NCBI RefSeq assembly: GCF_017982655.1
Contig: NZ_JABXYX010000072.1
Location: forward strand, 1 to 39,023
DNA from: Brasilonema sp. CT11
GTDB lineage: Bacteria > Cyanobacteriota > Cyanobacteriia > Cyanobacteriales > Nostocaceae
Direction: 5' to 3'
Length of the DNA: 39,023 nt
Part shown: positions 1 to 5,987 of the stretch, piece by piece
How the letters are laid out: each line of letters opens with the position of its first letter
Numbering within the stretch: position 1 is the stretch's first letter
Position numbers and translations under genes: made by a program
Notes under the pieces: model-generated
Told to the model about the DNA's origin: nothing
Databases searched by the model: none
The model's input: the letters and a program-made list of their open reading frames with translations, nothing else

Positions 1-125
1 CCGCCCGAACCTATCAAGAATTAGATGATGCCATTACAAATGCTTTAAACGCAGTGACGAAAAAAGACATTATTGGATGGTTTACCCACTGCTGCTACTA
101 TATTGCACCCAACTGAGAACCGCTA
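1..125 (+). mobile_element. Right end of an IS630-type insertion sequence (partial)
   Basis: The window opens inside an IS630-type element. The transposase stop is at 114-116, and a few bases later the DNA switches to the coding sense of an unrelated minus-strand reading frame. The segment GCACCCAACTGAGAACCGC at 106-124 resembles a terminal inverted repeat that I recall from cyanobacterial IS630 elements. It is followed by TATA, which fits the TA target preference of the family. The left end lies outside the window, so the exact boundary is an inference. Confidence 0.55.
3..116 (+). CDS. IS630 family transposase, C-terminal fragment (cut by window edge)
   Basis: The frame open from base 3 to the TGA at 114-116 encodes 37 residues beginning ARTYQELDDAITNALN and ending GWFTHCCYYIAPN. 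This matches the usual C-terminus of cyanobacterial IS630/Tc1-type DDE transposases (short acidic helix, then a WFxHCGY-like tail). The catalytic DDE residues would lie upstream, outside the window. The family call rests on this short tail only. Whether the element is active cannot be told from here. Confidence 0.6.
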   Translation, partial: ARTYQELDDAITNALNAVTKKDIIGWFTHCCYYIAPN

Positions 126-426
126 TATAAACAGTATATTGAGGAATAAAATTACCGGGAGTAGCTTCGACATTCCGAACGATGAAATAAGGATTCGGTC
201 CACCTGGATATGCGCGAGGATAAAAACCAAATCCTGTCAGTTGTGGATCATCATAATCAATATTTGGGAATTGGAATGATGCGTGTATTGGAGCAGACCT
301 TACCTGCCTAAATTTTGGGGAAGGCGAACTAACCAAGGACGAAACCAACGCTACAACAGGCGGAACACCTGATGGTGGTGGTTCTAAAGAAACTTGAGCT
401 ATCGGAGAGGGTGGAAGAAAGAGCAT
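82..426 (-). pseudogene. Proline-rich hypothetical protein, 3' end apparently replaced by the IS630 element
   Basis: A minus-strand frame of 114 codons starts MLFLPPSPIAQVSLEPPPSG, is Pro/Ser-rich to about residue 45, and then has a more ordered stretch (FPNIDYDDPQLTGFGFYPRA, then YPGGPNPYFIVRNVEATPG). From about residue 100 the codons fall inside the terminal sequence of the IS630 element, so the last 14 or so residues and the stop belong to the IS. The natural end of the gene is therefore missing. No Shine-Dalgarno site is visible before the ATG at 426, and the frame is open upstream only to a TGA at 457-459. I do not recognise the family. It may be the N-terminal part of an exported protein, or a non-coding frame. 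Confidence 0.35.
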
Positions 427-562
427 AGGAAAATTCCATGATTTAATTACCTGTACTCATTCTCATTTTTCTTTTTTAGTTTAATTTATTCACAAAACAG
501 GCATTCTGCTTTACAAACAATTCATTGTGATGATACGGGCATATACGGTGATCAGCATCATA

Positions 563-624
563 GTTGATTACACTAAAAATAGAACCGTCAAATTAAATTG
601 GCGGTTCGGGCTTGTGTAATCAAC
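563..624 (+). promoter_or_regulatory. Nested palindrome ending 7 bases before the ParA-nuclease start codon
   Basis: GTTGATTACAC at 563-573 is the exact reverse complement of GTGTAATCAAC at 614-624. Inside it, GAACCGTCAA (582-591) pairs with TTGGCGGTTC (598-607) with one G-T pair. The two stems are concentric and together span 62 bases. The structure ends 7 bases before the ATG at 632, and no separate ribosome-binding site is visible. It could be an operator for autoregulation (common in par operons), a parS-like site, or an RNA hairpin controlling translation. Only the symmetry is observed; the role is inferred. Confidence 0.6.
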
Positions 625-631
625 TTATTTT

Positions 632-1984
632 ATGGAATATTCCCAGCTTCAACAAGTGTTGCTTAGCCTACCGGGTAATGCACAGGAATCAATCGTAGGT
701 AGTATATTTGTTCCCGAATTCTTAAAAACATTAGGGTATGGCATAACTGAAATAGTTCCCCAGTTCGCGACTAGGAATGGTGCGGATACAGTTGACTACG
801 CTGTTAGAAAGAATACTGACAACGACATATTTATCAATACCAAATCTAATCCTTACCTGCTTCTTGAGTTAAAAGGCAGAGATATTAACTTGAGTGAAAA
901 TTCCACACAGTACAAGTCTACCGTTTCTCAACTAAAACGCTATCTGCTAGCGTCGAACAGTAAATCAGCCCAATGGGGAATCATTACCAACTCAAACCAC
1001 ATACAACTATTCAGGAAGCATGGTAAGGTGGTTCACCCATCTTCGCGTTGCCTGGAAATTACTCCGGACAATCTTTACGAGATTGTGGAAACTATCAAAA
1101 CCAAAATCGACACTCCTCAAAAAGCGCTCACTGTTGCCATTTACAACAATAAAGGTGGCGTGGGAAAAACTACGACTACGGTAAACTTGGCTGCAACGTT
1201 GGCAAATCTGGGAAAGCGAGTATTAATTCTCGACTTCGACCCGAACCAGCAGGACTTAACCAACTCCCTAGACATAAAACCACCAAATGAAGACGCACTA
1301 TATTCCTGGCTAAACAGTAAGCCGAGTCCGTCATTTCCTTCAGGGGTAATGTTCAGGTTTAGCTATTTAATGAAAACTGGTAACACAGTAACGTTTGATG
1401 TTATTCCAAGCGACAAAAAGCTGACGGAGCTAGGAGAAGACAAACTGCGGCAAGTCTTCAGGGTAACTAAGCTAAGGCAGGTGATTGACCCGTTTAAAAG
1501 CGCATACGACTACATTCTCATTGACTCTCCTCCCAATTGGATGTTTTTCAGTCAGAGCGCGTTGTATGCGTCGGATGTCATTTTAATTCCTACAAAACAT
1601 AACAACGTCTTTTCTTTGCAGAATGCGGCAATTGTTATTAAACAATTCATTCCAGAGATCCAAAATCTCAGAAAAGATGGAGGACCGGTAGCTCTCCCTA
1701 TTTTCTTCAACGGAGAGAGTATTACCCAAGCAGCACGAATTACAGCGGATTTAGCATTGGATGAAATTATTAAACAGGCAAAGCAGGATAAAACCAATTC
1801 GTTTGATTTAACGCCGTATTTTTACTCCCTTCACAGCAAAGCAAAGCCGAATAGCTACATTTTTAATCTGCCTGGTTACGCCCACATTGCAGGCGCTGCT
1901 TTTACTCGTATACCGTCTGTGTATAAAAATATCACAGCATATAATTACTATCTAGCATTAGCCAAGGAATATTTTTTGCCATGA
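632..1984 (+). CDS. Nuclease-like (HsdR_N / PD-(D/E)xK) domain fused to ParA-type ATPase
   Basis: This 450-residue protein has two parts. Residues 1-160 resemble the N-terminal nuclease domain of type I restriction R subunits (HSDR_N family): D55 in ADTVDYAV, E79-x-K81 in LLLELKGRD, and a QxxxY motif at 100-104, followed by WGIITNSNHIQLF. Residues 166-450 form a ParA/MinD-type ATPase with a deviant Walker A (KGGVGKTTTT, 174-183), a switch segment DFDPNQQDL (201-209) and Walker B YILIDSPP. ParA proteins move cargo such as plasmids with a ParB partner, and the next gene, overlapping by ATGA, encodes a ParB-like protein. Possible roles are plasmid-type partition, DNA surveillance or anti-mobile-element defence. 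The domain assignments are confident; the function is not. The leader carries a large palindrome. Confidence 0.85.
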   Translation: MEYSQLQQVLLSLPGNAQESIVGSIFVPEFLKTLGYGITEIVPQFATRNGADTVDYAVRKNTDNDIFINTKSNPYLLLELKGRDINLSENSTQYKSTVSQLKRYLLASNSKSAQWGIITNSNHIQLFRKHGKVVHPSSRCLEITPDNLYEIVETIKTKIDTPQKALTVAIYNNKGGVGKTTTTVNLAATLANLGKRVLILDFDPNQQDLTNSLDIKPPNEDALYSWLNSKPSPSFPSGVMFRFSYLMKTGNTVTFDVIPSDKKLTELGEDKLRQVFRVTKLRQVIDPFKSAYDYILIDSPPNWMFFSQSALYASDVILIPTKHNNVFSLQNAAIVIKQFIPEIQNLRKDGGPVALPIFFNGESITQAARITADLALDEIIKQAKQDKTNSFDLTPYFYSLHSKAKPNSYIFNLPGYAHIAGAAFTRIPSVYKNITAYNYYLALAKEYFLP

Positions 1985-2682
1985 GCTTAAGTGACGTTGG
2001 GAATTTGATGTGTCTTGACATGGATAGCATTAATCCAGGCAGAGGTACGGATGCACTAGAGTTTTTAATAAAAGCATCTGCAAAAGTGCTCAATGAGGCA
2101 GGTGGGCGCAATTGGGTGCCAGTGATTGTCAAAGAAATCGGAGAAGACCAGTACGAAGTTATCGGCAATTCGTTCATTTTCGCAGTGGTAGAGGAAGCCG
2201 GACTGGAGAAAGTATGGTGTATCATCGCTGATTTCAGCGAGCATACGTCTCAATTAACCAAAATTCTTACTGGAGAATCCGTACCTAAAGTCAACCTATC
2301 GACTGCAACTAGAGATGAAATTCAATCGGCATTGCAGTACTTGATTGAAAAACCAAATAGTGAATTGAAAGGTGTAAAGCTTGCGATCGCTACTAATCGT
2401 ATTGATGAAGCCCTACGCAAGTATTGGAAAAATTTGGAGCCAATTACGACACTTAAATGCGGTATAACTAAAGGAAAAAAGCTAAACGCTCTCAAAGAAG
2501 TTTTTTATCTAAGCCCTCAACCAATGCCGGATGTCATTACAGAGGTCGCTATCTTGGACACTCTAACGCTGACACAATTAAAAGATATGGCGAAAAAGCG
2601 AGGGATTCCCGGCTACAGTAAGAAAAAAAAGCCGGAGTTAGTTGATCTGCTGTCTCAAAAAAATAAACCCTCCTCAGATTGA
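1981..2682 (+). CDS. ParB-like protein with C-terminal Rho_N/SAP-like DNA-binding segment
   Basis: This 233-residue protein starts within the stop of the ParA-nuclease gene (ATGA overlap), so translation is probably coupled. Residues 46-84 read VPVIVKEIGEDQYEVIGNSF then an Ala/Val helix and KVWCIIADF. This is the layout of the ParB/sulfiredoxin fold (VPVxV, YEVIxG, then xVxxIV), although the GERR motif that binds CTP in ParB is replaced by GNSF. Residues about 109-122 (NLSTATRDEIQSAL) look like a helix-hairpin-helix. Residues 193-228 (TLTQLKDMAKKRGIPGYSKK) match the Rho N-terminal/SAP-like fold, which often binds DNA or RNA. It probably serves as the DNA-binding partner of the ATPase. The loss of GERR suggests it does not clamp in the classical ParB manner, which is an inference. 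Confidence 0.75.
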   Translation: MSLSDVGNLMCLDMDSINPGRGTDALEFLIKASAKVLNEAGGRNWVPVIVKEIGEDQYEVIGNSFIFAVVEEAGLEKVWCIIADFSEHTSQLTKILTGESVPKVNLSTATRDEIQSALQYLIEKPNSELKGVKLAIATNRIDEALRKYWKNLEPITTLKCGITKGKKLNALKEVFYLSPQPMPDVITEVAILDTLTLTQLKDMAKKRGIPGYSKKKKPELVDLLSQKNKPSSD

Positions 2683-2694
2683 GGCTAAGGAGGG
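2668..2694 (+). terminator. Hairpin overlapping the 3' end of the ParB-like gene
   Basis: CCCTCCTCAG (2668-2677) pairs with CTAAGGAGGG (2685-2694) at 9 of 10 positions, with a 7-base loop. It covers the last codons and stop of the ParB-like gene. No T-run follows, so it may protect the mRNA 3' end or help the stronger terminator just downstream. Confidence 0.45.
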
Positions 2695-2722
2695 CGGAAT
2701 AAATTCAAATTATGCTTTCCAG

Positions 2723-2767
2723 GGCGATCGCTTATTCGCGAAAAGTCAGGGGGCGATCGCCTTTTTT
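2723..2767 (+). terminator. Rho-independent terminator built from two HIP1 sites
   Basis: GGCGATCGC (2723-2731) and GCGATCGCC (2753-2761) form a perfect 9-bp stem followed directly by six T residues (2762-2767). Each arm is a HIP1 palindrome (GCGATCGC). It closes the two-gene cassette that begins with the palindrome at 563. Confidence 0.75.
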
Positions 2768-2937
2768 ATTTGAACCTGTTACACCTTTGCAACAGCGTTA
2801 ATAATTAGTCTGCATTGATCAAGAAGCTGCTACTTTCCTCCTCGCCAGCATGGACATAATTATCAAGCAAGGTACTAGTACAACGCGGCGGAAATAAAGC
2901 AACCATTTAAAACAGCCAAAAGCCTTGATATATACTA

Positions 2938-2968
2938 CTTTTGACTTTTGACTTTTGACTTTTGACTT
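2938..2968. repeat. Short tandem repeat, heptamer CTTTTGA x4
   Basis: Four exact copies of CTTTTGA run from 2938 to 2965, followed by a partial copy. Heptanucleotide arrays of this kind are typical of intergenic DNA in heterocystous cyanobacteria. This array abuts the decayed recombinase fragment. Confidence 0.85.
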
Positions 2969-2969
2969 C

Positions 2970-3105
2970 CGCGCAGCGGTACTAGCACTAGCGTGTCCGA
3001 GAGTATTCGTAGTTACCTTTATTGGCGCGTTGTTTTTTAATGCATGAGTGGCGTGACTATGTCGTAACCACTGCGGTGACGGAGTTTTGTCGAGTTTAAC
3101 CAGTA
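2970..3105 (-). pseudogene. Tyrosine recombinase (phage-type integrase) remnant
   Basis: On the minus strand the frame encodes KTPSPQWLRHSHATHALKNN followed by APIKVTTNTLGHAS. This matches the C-terminal core of tyrosine recombinases (SPHWLRHxHATHAL, box II HxLR-type residues, then LGHAS). The N-terminal half is missing. The catalytic Tyr segment that normally follows LGHASVATTxRYxH is replaced by the heptamer array. It is therefore a dead fragment, left by a former mobile element next to the ParA-nuclease cassette. The rest of the 2683-3198 gap holds the terminator, the heptamer array and no other gene that I can support. Confidence 0.65.
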
Positions 3106-3198
3106 ACGCAGTGGCTCCCCTCCCGCAGCGCTGCCTCGTCTTGTTGCTAGCCGAAGGTGTCAAATGGTAGCACCTTCAAACATGGGGTTAGAAGCTGT

Positions 3199-3723
3199 TC
3201 AATGATTCTTTGACTGCTCAGATGGTTCGTTAGTTTTTTGTGGTGTTGCTGTCAATCCAATAGTTCTGGAACTATCGCTGAAACTTATTTTTCCTATTGA
3301 ATCGTCTTTTTGTGCCAATTGAATTTGTATTTTAACTGGGATAGCGTTTGCTTGTATTTGAGAATTTGGAGTATTACATAGGATGTGTCTGGGAACTTTT
3401 CCCGATAAACTCAATTGTTGATTTTTCAGTTTACCAGTTAGAGAAGATTTTTCAGATGCTTTTGAACTTATAGTAGAGTTAGCTGGTAGTAAAAAACCAT
3501 TCAAGTAAACTCCTGATTGCTGAATATTTAAGAGCAAAAAATCTGATTTTTCGCAGACGGGCAAATTTTCACTAAATACGAGACGATAATGAGTGTTAAT
3601 TGCAGGCTGTGCTTTGATGCTGTTTTCTCCATAAGCTGTTACAACTTTAAACAAGAGCACAACTATACTTATTGTCACACCATAGAAGGTTAGAGATTTG
3701 AAGGGGAAATGAGGTTTTGTCAT
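3199..3723 (-). CDS. Membrane-anchored hypothetical protein downstream of the antiporter
   Basis: This 174-residue protein has one N-terminal hydrophobic segment (about residues 10-30, SLTFYGVTISIVVLLFKVVT) that would act as an uncleaved anchor or signal. The remaining roughly 140 residues are soluble and probably periplasmic, with two Cys residues (in VCEKSD and ILCNTP) that could form a disulfide. The C-terminus is a polar tail. It lies 83 bases downstream of the antiporter on the same strand, so the two may be co-transcribed. I do not recognise the family. An accessory role for the antiporter is only suggested by position. Confidence 0.6.
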   Translation of the reverse strand: MTKPHFPFKSLTFYGVTISIVVLLFKVVTAYGENSIKAQPAINTHYRLVFSENLPVCEKSDFLLLNIQQSGVYLNGFLLPANSTISSKASEKSSLTGKLKNQQLSLSGKVPRHILCNTPNSQIQANAIPVKIQIQLAQKDDSIGKISFSDSSRTIGLTATPQKTNEPSEQSKNH

Positions 3724-3806
3724 GTTGATAAAAGATCATCGGGAATAAAGGAAAATGATCAATCCTGAATGATGTCAGAAGTCATCATTTAGAATTGATT
3801 ATTTAT

Positions 3807-5987
3807 TTAACTTTTTACTTCTGATTTCTCGTTAGCAAGAACGGAAGTAATATGAGAGCTAATTTGACTGTGGCGACGAGTAATCAGCAGTGAAGAGCGA
3901 CACTCAATAGCTAGTTGATCTGTATATCTTCCCAAGGTTTGACGTTCGATACCCCAAGCGCGACTCGTACCAGCAATGGTGAGATCAACAGCTTCAGAGG
4001 CTGCAACTACAGCTTGAATTGGTTCTATGGCTTCGACTATTTTGATGTCAATGCGATCGCGTACACTTTGAGGCAATTGCTCCATGACGGTGTGAAGCTC
4101 GTAACTCAGTTCATTTCTGACTTGGTTCTCTGCTACAACCTGTAAAAGCTGTAATCGGCAGGTATCACGATTTATTAGCAATCTCAAAGCCAGTATCATT
4201 GCTAAATCGTCATGAATGTTTGCGGAATAAGGAACCAATAACCTTTCTAAACGCTCTTGTCCTCGATCTATAAACACTGCTACATCTACTGGTGCATTGG
4301 TAAGAATTTGACCAACTCGTCCACCTAAGCGATTCTTACTGAAAGCTGGACGATGCCATCCTACTAAAATTAAGTTAGCTTGCTCAAGTAAGGCAATCCG
4401 TGCTGTTTCTCGTGCAACATTGGTGGATGTGCAAACAATAGGATGCATATAGGAGCGTGCTTCTGATGGTTCTAGACGTGAAATCAATTCTTCTAGCTGT
4501 TGGCGACGCTGTGTAATAACTCTATTTGCTTCTTCTGGAGTACTTTCAAAGCCATAGTCTTCTTGCAGTTCAATCAAACTGAGTGGATAAACAACGGCGG
4601 GTTGTTGATAGTTGATTGCGATCGCAACAGCCAACTCCATCAAACCTCTTTGGCTGTTGGGATTTGCGACTGGAACCAAAATTCGGTAAGGACGATTGTA
4701 AAAATCTTCAGCACCAGAGGTGTTTGTTTGTTTCTCTTCTGGTTCTTGCTCAACCACATCCAACTTGATCAGCTTTTTCGGATAAGTTTGCTCTAACAGT
4801 GGCGAAGTCATAAATGTTGTGACTAGTGCCATAATCACCAGCATGGTAAATAGTAGCGGCGAAATGACTCCAAGACTTAAACCAATATTTAGCACTATCA
4901 GCTCAGTTAAGCCGCGAGTATTCATCAACCAACCTAGTGCTGAGGCTTCTCGCTTATTTATACCACTAACACGCGCTGCTACATAAGTGCCAACGTATTT
5001 ACCTATGATTGCCACTGCGAGCACAGCTAAGCACAGTGCCCATAATTCTGGTTTATTCAGCAAACCAATTTCCGTCCGCAAACCACTATAAGCAAAGAAC
5101 ACTGGTAGCAGAAATATCAGCACAAAATCTTCGGTTTTTATTGCTAATTCCCGGACTAAACCTGCATTCTTTGGCATGGCTGCTCCTAGTAAAAAAGCCC
5201 CAAATATGAGGTGAATGCCAATCAGTTCGGTAATCAGAGCAGAAGCAACCACTGCCATGTAAATCAAAGCTAGAACTAGTTGGCTGAGGCGTCCAGTCCG
5301 ACGGTAGTAGTTGGCAAGGCGTTTCAAGACAATTCGCCCTACTGTCATCATCAAGCCGATGTAAATCAGGGAGTATAAAATAGTGGGAATAGCTTTGACA
5401 AAACTACCAGTATGTGCAACGGCAATAGCCACTGCCAACAAGCACCAAGCAGTAACATCATCTACTGCAGCACAAGTCAGCGCCAAAGTTCCCAAACGTG
5501 TTTTTTGCAAATTATTTTCAGTAATAATACGTGCTAATACTGGAAAAGCAGTAATCGACATTGCTGCTCCCAGAAACAGCGCGAAGGCGGTAAACGACAC
5601 ACTAGCATTGGATACTAGAGGATACAGCAGAACTGCTAGCAGCGTTCCTAATGAAAACGGTACTAAAATACTGACGTGAGAAGTTAATATTGCTACCTCT
5701 AAATTACCGCTGAGGTATTTAGGGTTTAACTCTAACCCAATCAAAAACATGAAGAAAATTAACCCTACCTGAGACAACACATTCAGGAAGGGAATTGTTT
5801 CAGGTGGAAATAGGGTAGATGCTAATCCTGGAGCAACCAAACCAAAAAGAGATGGTCCGAGCATTATCCCAGCAACAATCTCTCCAATGACTAATGGTTG
5901 GTTAATCCACCGGAAGGCGAGTCCTACTAGCCGTGACAGTCCGATAACAATAAGCACTTCAACGAGAACGAGAACAACTGTCTGCAT
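3807..5987 (-). CDS. CPA2-type cation:proton antiporter with two C-terminal universal stress (USP) domains
   Basis: This 726-residue protein starts at an ATG preceded by GAGGAAAAC. Residues 1-400 are a Na+/H+ exchanger domain of the Kef/NhaS type, with about 12 hydrophobic helices and family signatures such as GEIVAGIMLGPSLFG near 35-50 and LTCAAVDDVTAWCLLA near 170, where the DD pair corresponds to ion-binding aspartates. After a charged linker (VVEQEPEEKQTNTSGAED) come two UspA-like folds, about 435-575 (starting YRILVPVANPNSQRG) and 585-705 (starting ERLLVPYSANIHDD). USP-tailed CPA2 antiporters are common in cyanobacteria and act in pH and Na+/K+ homeostasis at the plasma or thylakoid membrane. 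The exact ion cannot be read from sequence. The gene is divergent from the PspA-like gene. Confidence 0.9.
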   Translation of the reverse strand: MQTVVLVLVEVLIVIGLSRLVGLAFRWINQPLVIGEIVAGIMLGPSLFGLVAPGLASTLFPPETIPFLNVLSQVGLIFFMFLIGLELNPKYLSGNLEVAILTSHVSILVPFSLGTLLAVLLYPLVSNASVSFTAFALFLGAAMSITAFPVLARIITENNLQKTRLGTLALTCAAVDDVTAWCLLAVAIAVAHTGSFVKAIPTILYSLIYIGLMMTVGRIVLKRLANYYRRTGRLSQLVLALIYMAVVASALITELIGIHLIFGAFLLGAAMPKNAGLVRELAIKTEDFVLIFLLPVFFAYSGLRTEIGLLNKPELWALCLAVLAVAIIGKYVGTYVAARVSGINKREASALGWLMNTRGLTELIVLNIGLSLGVISPLLFTMLVIMALVTTFMTSPLLEQTYPKKLIKLDVVEQEPEEKQTNTSGAEDFYNRPYRILVPVANPNSQRGLMELAVAIAINYQQPAVVYPLSLIELQEDYGFESTPEEANRVITQRRQQLEELISRLEPSEARSYMHPIVCTSTNVARETARIALLEQANLILVGWHRPAFSKNRLGGRVGQILTNAPVDVAVFIDRGQERLERLLVPYSANIHDDLAMILALRLLINRDTCRLQLLQVVAENQVRNELSYELHTVMEQLPQSVRDRIDIKIVEAIEPIQAVVAASEAVDLTIAGTSRAWGIERQTLGRYTDQLAIECRSSLLITRRHSQISSHITSVLANEKSEVKS

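Follow-up and report, generated by a model that had tools for sequence, protein, structure and literature searches.

ATPases of the ParA/MinD family are known to position DNA and other cargo, and the question arises what such an ATPase may do when it is joined in one polypeptide to a predicted nuclease. This question is posed by a two-gene locus (positions 563 to 2,767) of the cyanobacterium Brasilonema sp. CT11 (assembly GCF_017982655.1, contig NZ_JABXYX010000072.1). The whole stretch of 39,023 nucleotides that was analysed is referred to as the window, and its position 1 is the first base of its contig. As assigned from the list of open reading frames (ORFs), Pfam and predicted models, gene A (632..1984, plus strand) encodes a putative nuclease-ParA fusion of 450 amino acids, and gene B (1981..2682, plus strand) a ParB-fold partner of 233 amino acids, the two ORFs sharing 4 bases. 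We tentatively favor, at somewhat less than even confidence, a reading in which A and B work together as a single module, an ATP-gated nuclease that its DNA-binding partner directs to foreign or abnormal DNA. Genomes and loci used for comparison are denoted below by G and L numbers.

Gene A: a predicted nuclease fused to a ParA-type ATPase

The larger part of A (residues 166-450; 1127..1981, plus strand) was assigned by Pfam (AAA_31, 1.6e-34) and Foldseek to the ParA ATPases. It contains a deviant Walker A motif, KGGVGKT (residues 174-181; 1151-1174, plus strand), and across the aligned sets the Walker motifs are fully or almost fully intact. The preceding part (residues 1-160; 632..1111, plus strand) is predicted from Pfam, residue conservation and the structural model to be an HSDR_N-like PD-(D/E)xK nuclease domain. 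Its residues 24-129 matched the family HSDR_N_2 at 3.3e-5 with 24.4 bits, missing the cut-off (25 bits) by 0.6, and the same family was matched by 49 out of 52 A proteins (E 0.01 or better, the window protein included). No helicase family (SF2 translocase) was found by Pfam in the A chain of the window or in the 52 A proteins.

The putative active site is strongly conserved. Among 42 full-length A proteins, including two copies just 24-26% identical, E79 (866-868) and K81 (872-874) are kept in all and D55 (794-796) in 41; in a wider set the respective counts are 67/67, 67/67 and 66/67. Q100 and Y104 are mostly retained (Y104 in 58 of the 67). Comparison of the window with the copy in G020, a genome of the same genus, gave dN/dS values of 0.093 for the nuclease, 0.110 for ParA and 0.148 for B, so that both genes are under purifying selection (dN/dS about 0.1) as judged from this single pair of copies. 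Given the near-invariant D/E/K residues and the low dN/dS, the catalytic domain of A seems to be maintained.

The AlphaFold2 model of A (pLDDT 92.9, pTM 0.92) places D55 in strand 53-58, E79 and K81 where strand 76-80 ends, and Q100 and Y104 in helix 92-105, which is the usual order of elements in PD-(D/E)xK enzymes. Foldseek searches with this model retrieved Soj/ParA (6iub at 8.8e-16), with a DNA-bound Soj/ParA structure also among the matches; all 50 matches listed out of 1353 were ParA-type folds.

Gene B: a ParB-fold protein with an altered signature

The N-terminal domain of B (1981..2280, plus strand) is ParB/Noc/sulfiredoxin-like, with N63 at 2167-2169. It is followed by a middle helical domain (2281..2526, plus strand) delineated from the alignment, with a conserved LKCGITKGKKL segment, and by a Rho_N/SAP-like C-terminal domain (2554..2643, plus strand) assigned by Pfam, which is optional in the family. 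In the window protein Rho_N was matched at 1.2e-6 and ParB_N weakly, at 0.0016 and under the cut-off; among 52 B proteins, the window included, the two families were matched by 46 and 42, respectively. Five positions (N44, P47, N63, W79 and C80) are invariant in the 52-member alignment. A GERR-type box was found in none of the 52 proteins, GNSF standing in its place in the window B, and neither did any of them contain the ParA-binding motif (L/F/I)G[K/R]G(L/F/I), as defined for ParB in the passages of PMC12704722 cited here. The 12 Pfam families matched by any of the 52 proteins (E 0.01) include no HTH family, and so no counterpart of the central HTH of ParB. The AlphaFold2 model of B (pLDDT 90.4, pTM 0.73) returned Noc/ParB as the first Foldseek match, followed by SerK and sulfiredoxin.

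The C-terminus of B varies. In most members it is Rho_N, in a Nostoc-containing clade (L104-L112) it is instead a repeat of the middle domain, and in the alignment Rho_N is absent from the most distant rows (L097, L120, L121 and L131). Because Rho itself is reported to be lacking in cyanobacteria (in the passages of PMC13289151 cited here), Rho_N in B is best read as a nucleic-acid-binding module. Inspected by eye, the middle domain may have a helix-hairpin-helix (HhH) character; the window B has no Pfam HhH match, and a distant partner (L228) matched HHH_6 at 7e-5, below the Pfam cut-off. As the B family profile aligns to L227 and L228 over the ParB-like part only, we infer this character for the window B with caution.

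Both assignments agree with the initial annotation, which had described A as an HSDR_N-like nuclease fused to ParA (on D55, E79, K81, Q100, Y104 and an intact KGGVGKT) and B as a ParB/sulfiredoxin outline with GNSF for GERR and a Rho_N end. The structure predictions that it had called for gave confident models, A resembling Soj/ParA and B resembling Noc/ParB.

Distribution and pairing

Within the host family, B-like sequences (some of them fragments) were detected in 61 of the 217 genomes and the nuclease domain in 49, of which 45 also had a B match; the remaining four were G006, G067 (at a contig end), G212 (decayed) and G213 (broken). Phylum samples comprising 386 genomes gave B matches in 52 (36/143 genera, fragments included) and matches to a distant nuclease query in 46 (34/142 genera), 39 of the 46 being in the B list. 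The pair is thus present in 12-13% of the phylum samples.

Where full-length A genes were found, B was located in the same locus for 41 out of 42 (loci picked from both searches). A collection of species genomes was also searched with the B alignment of this family, and the best 80 of 124 relatives were analysed. All are titled cyanobacteria except one metagenome bin, Tatlockia. An intact fused A adjoins B in 65 of these 80 loci, mostly with the same 4-base overlap, a figure biased by the loci having been found through B; among the rest, 7 are disrupted, cut or widely spaced and 8 have no nuclease match, several of them lying at a contig end. In 13 further loci chosen from the phylum-sample B matches, A was beside B in all 13. 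The pairwise distances of A and B correlate, with r 0.83 for 2145 pairs and without a correction for common ancestry, and in a quick gene tree the Nostocales copies are spread over several separate clades.

The exceptional contig (L202), in a Legionellales bin, bears a pair of the cyanobacterial type whose A groups with cyanobacterial sequences; the Tatlockia assignment is probably due to mis-binning.

Gain and loss of the pair as a unit

The window and its closest relative, the copy in G020, share 91.4% identity over 2225 bp (489..2713, plus strand), over the pair and little else, with just two short matches outside and a different context in G020. These limits replace the 563..2767 of the initial annotation as the extent of the shared stretch. 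Of six congeners, five (G020, G021, G022, G024 and G025) possess the right flank of the window; G020 carries its pair on a different contig, and the other four lack the pair. Likewise, the homology of loci L088 and L090 amounts to 2104 bp that cover hardly more than the pair; outside it the matches are short and scattered (1.3 kb being available on one L088 side). Other locus pairs that were compared have longer syntenic stretches in common. Among the 12 genomes of the genus of G297, searched with a Microcystis-locus query, a segment of 2188 bp that includes the pair is missing from G562, the junction being marked by a 4-bp repeat, and G563 has an internal deletion. The 2.2-kb pair has moved or been lost by itself. 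A transposon with defined ends was considered and rejected: the homology ends at or near the genes, and no shared terminal repeats were seen in the copies compared.

A second, divergent family

An independent family, judged from domain matches and conserved residues, repeats the design of an HSDR_N-ParA fusion with a ParB_N partner. In the Brasilonema genome itself, contig C7 (L317, 4814-6939) encodes a divergent HSDR_N-ParA protein of 459 amino acids followed by a ParB_N protein; HSDR_N_2 (2.6e-7) and ParB_N (1.4e-8) both score above the Pfam cut-offs, and AAA_31 is matched at 3.5e-55. At E 1e-40 or better, relatives were detected in 56 of the 367 cyanobacterial genomes sampled; some of these relatives are no more than ParA parts. 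A ParB_N-like partner is adjacent in all 19 loci analysed (the C7 locus and 18 chosen from the matches), and the putative nuclease residues D46, E70 and K72 are conserved in 17/17. Against PADLOC 2.0 the second-family A had no full-length model match, only its residues 162-267 matching PDC-M28B.

In three loci of this family (L335, L336 and L338) the nuclease and ParA genes are split. Natural fission was rejected as an explanation; the break lies in the Walker A region in L335 and about 25 residues beyond it in L336, pointing to disrupted copies. In five of the 19 loci (L335, L345, L347, L349 and L350) a separate, divergently oriented ParA of about 294-313 amino acids is encoded at most about 2 kb upstream of the pair.

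Genomic context

Contigs >1 Mb hold 24 loci, five of them with A alone; many others are on draft contigs, for which no judgement is possible. Near or distant versions of the pair are also present in six plasmid records, a pair of twins among them. Three plasmids of Nostoc sp. UHCC 0870 (one of them viewed over 50 of its 55 kb) each have a version along with other ParA genes, which are adjoined by an annotated ParB on two plasmids and accompanied by ParM on two. The three versions in this single strain (L127, L128 and L129) are different, and a site-specific integrase gene lies at most about 1.1 kb from the pair on two of the plasmids and at most about 2.5 kb from it on the third. A Pseudanabaena plasmid of 12.6 kb has a distant pair as the sole partition-like module among its annotated genes, most of which are hypothetical. 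Elsewhere in the host genome there is a canonical ParA with a GERR-type ParB. A scan for canonical parS returned one site with 2 mismatches, at 4404 (0.35 expected by chance); a centromere of another kind may be present.

Apart from A and B, no gene is widely recurrent at these loci, the largest other neighbor cluster covering 16 loci vs 54 each for A and B. In the 80-locus set the commonest other neighbor occurs in 10 loci at scattered positions, and the remaining neighbors reflect genus-level synteny (Microcystis; Trichodesmium/Okeania; the L104-L112 clade) plus a recombinase-like gene in a few loci. The nearest neighbors were analysed as 107 proteins from 59 of the 80 loci, 21 near-redundant loci being skipped. 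HsdM and HsdS are not among the 25 commonest of the 157 families matched by them. In a search against defence models (25 of 45 listed for one set and 25 of 79 for the other), the commonest listed model, PDC-S03, was matched by 5 of the 107 proteins, a second PDC-S03 model by 4 and other listed models by at most 2; similar single matches were obtained for more distant neighbors.

A phage origin was rejected for both genes. Out of 50,697 phage records, 8 match A, none of them over 80% of its length, and 2 match part of B; no B match was obtained in IMG/VR. Among the best 80 of 467 IMG/VR matches to A there is a single complete pair (L231, 5004-7027 of a 58 kb contig).

What the pair may do

In the mechanism that we favor, A would bind ATP and dimerise on DNA in the manner of ParA/Soj, ATP-dependent dimerisation being established for the ParA family. 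Dimerisation would bring two HSDR_N-type nuclease domains together on the DNA. B would bind particular DNA via its middle and Rho_N parts and control the ATPase cycle of A via its ParB-like domain, and A would cut where B accumulates. The likeliest targets would be plasmids, phage genomes, and broken or entangled DNA, which would make the pair a small chromosomal unit of DNA surveillance or defence. Foreign or abnormal DNA as the target would fit a gain and loss that are patchy and affect the pair as a unit. The sequences themselves show the domain architecture, purifying selection (in one pair of copies), catalytic residues that are intact, a patchy distribution, operon-like pairing, and gain or loss of both genes together; these, with the confident models, the correlated distances of A and B and the repeated design of the second family, speak for this reading.

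A number of observations weigh against this mechanism. The nuclease fold of A is predicted from the Pfam matches, from residue conservation and from how the elements are ordered in the model, since the listed Foldseek matches are of ParA type and a sequence search with the nuclease domain alone gave no convincing solved relative. The initial annotation had raised the point whether A and B always adjoin; they are mostly neighbors, and in the stretches fetched from six genomes (G006, and G292, G372, G435, G466 and G565 of family f24) A occurs without a detectable B, from which it follows that B is not strictly required. (The five f24 loci are L318-L322, each with a fused A.) Decayed or partial copies occur as well. 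In the second family, L339 and L348 have ParA and the partner without the nuclease, so a related partner can adjoin a plain ParA. The pair corresponds to no known PADLOC 2.0 system, only residues 146-203 of A (the Walker A region) matching PDC-M28B at 5.7e-10. Defence models are not enriched beside the pair (107 nearest vs 74 more distant proteins, E 1e-10), and many nearest neighbors, among the 25 commonest families listed, are housekeeping-like. On these neighbors we rejected a defence island as the setting of the pair. Defence or plasmid exclusion, as envisaged in the initial annotation, remains the likeliest guess, albeit without the enrichment of defence genes.

Some of these same observations would suit a housekeeping role, in which A/B would recognise intermediates of replication or repair, or chromosome copies that have become tangled, in polyploid cyanobacteria and resolve them by ATP-gated cleavage. 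The loci on large contigs, the stability of the pair beside housekeeping genes in some genera, the low dN/dS and the missing defence-island signal all speak for such chromosomal DNA maintenance. However, most genomes do without the pair, it has been lost or has decayed within genera, the quick tree scatters the Nostocales, and some copies are on plasmids; we consider this role unlikely, though the most credible of the rivals. The ParA and ParB folds themselves, the versions on each of the three Nostoc plasmids, the Pseudanabaena plasmid and the integrase gene or relic near some loci would rather suit a partition module of a plasmid or integrated element that gained a nuclease, either segregating its replicon or tying partition to the cutting of competitors. 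This appears improbable in view of the preponderance of large contigs (24 loci vs six plasmid records), the lack of a widely recurrent third gene, the absence of GERR and ParA-binding motifs from all 52 B proteins, the other ParA, ParB and ParM genes on the Nostoc plasmids, and the apparent lack of a canonical parS beside the pair. The partition of an integrated element, which the initial annotation had offered as an alternative, is likewise disfavored by the large contigs and by the other partition genes of the host and the Nostoc plasmids, as is ordinary plasmid partition. More doubtful still is a selfish homing or addiction cassette, with a nuclease that aids the spread or retention of the pair and B as a specificity factor or antitoxin. 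Such a cassette would account for two genes that move or disappear with nothing else, as illustrated by the stretch shared by L088 and L090, but no common insertion site and no conserved ends were seen in the copies compared, the junction seen in one genus shows just 4 bp of microhomology, and the occurrence of A with E-x-K but without B in six genomes argues against B as a needed antitoxin.

Flanking features

The initial annotation gave the unit its own leader palindrome and terminator and placed it among mobile-element relics. The palindrome (562..625, plus strand; outer arms 562-573 and 614-625 with an inner GAACCG hairpin) folds far better than dinucleotide shuffles, with z -7.65 in the window and -6.75 in the G020 copy. 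As a conserved element of the family the leader hairpin was rejected: over 85 upstream regions the mean z was -0.60 (mononucleotide shuffles), with 28% below -1. No Rfam match was found in window positions 1-4000. By eye, a box like TTACTGAATACACTAA (563-576 in the window) recurs in several members of the clade to which the window belongs, some 50-70 nt before A; it is a possible promoter or operator. The hairpin scan located a terminator-like hairpin just 3' of B (2667..2695, minus strand; z -1.6 for the folded segment 2650-2700) and another one (2748-2765) followed by a T run (2748..2771, plus strand; z -4.6 for 2720-2775). Such hairpins are weak evidence alone, 3 being found vs 2.1 expected. 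The palindrome is thus a real feature of the window that is not general in the family.

The mobile-element relics are confirmed. A C-terminal tyrosine recombinase fragment is encoded at 2819-3163 on the minus strand (Phage_integrase, 1.3e-5, slightly under the cut-off), and positions 1-128 recur in six other contigs of the genome, five of which begin with this stretch. This repeat, a putative transposase-like end, probably broke the assembly there. A short element with TGACTTTTGACTT units (about 2874-2986) is present in many copies in the host and related genomes.

Comparison with known systems

The coupling of a DNA-binding ATPase to a nuclease is known from plasmid defence systems of the Wadjet/MksBEFG and Lamassu types, whose ATPases are SMC proteins. 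Unlike these, the A/B unit has no widely recurrent third gene that could be an SMC subunit. With HsdR of type I restriction A shares the HSDR_N family match and the catalytic D, E and K, but its chain is without a helicase translocase, and HsdM and HsdS are missing from the listed neighbor families. In ParABS, Soj/ParA (PDB 6iub, 8jmj) has the ATPase fold and deviant Walker A seen in A, whereas A adds an N-terminal nuclease domain and B is not a canonical ParB. The N-terminal domain of B has the predicted fold of the ParB/Noc CTPases, from which it differs by GNSF in place of GERR, by the lack of the ParA-binding motif and by its Rho_N end. The type IV restriction system GmrSD (PMC4619093) likewise has a ParB/Srx-fold protein acting with a nuclease; there, however, the components are DUF262 and HNH, and ParA is not mentioned in the passages of that source cited here. 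DUF3850 fusions are the only case that a survey of the ParB fold (PMC12704722), in its passages cited here, gives as consistently co-encoded with parA; the A/B pair is absent from these passages, and no published description of the pair was found among open-licence papers, preprints left out.

Overall, it is possible, with a confidence lower than that for the module itself, that A/B represents an undescribed class of DNA-surveillance machine in which a restriction-type nuclease is gated by a ParA-type ATPase cycle in place of a helicase or SMC motor and a ParB-fold adaptor picks the DNA, with two divergent families recurring across cyanobacteria as stand-alone two-gene units. If so, the ParA/MinD family would be extended into DNA cutting by a compact, testable two-gene system, with B as a partner of ParB fold from which the CTPase signature has been lost. 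If A/B restricts incoming DNA, it could be a transformation barrier in some cyanobacteria.

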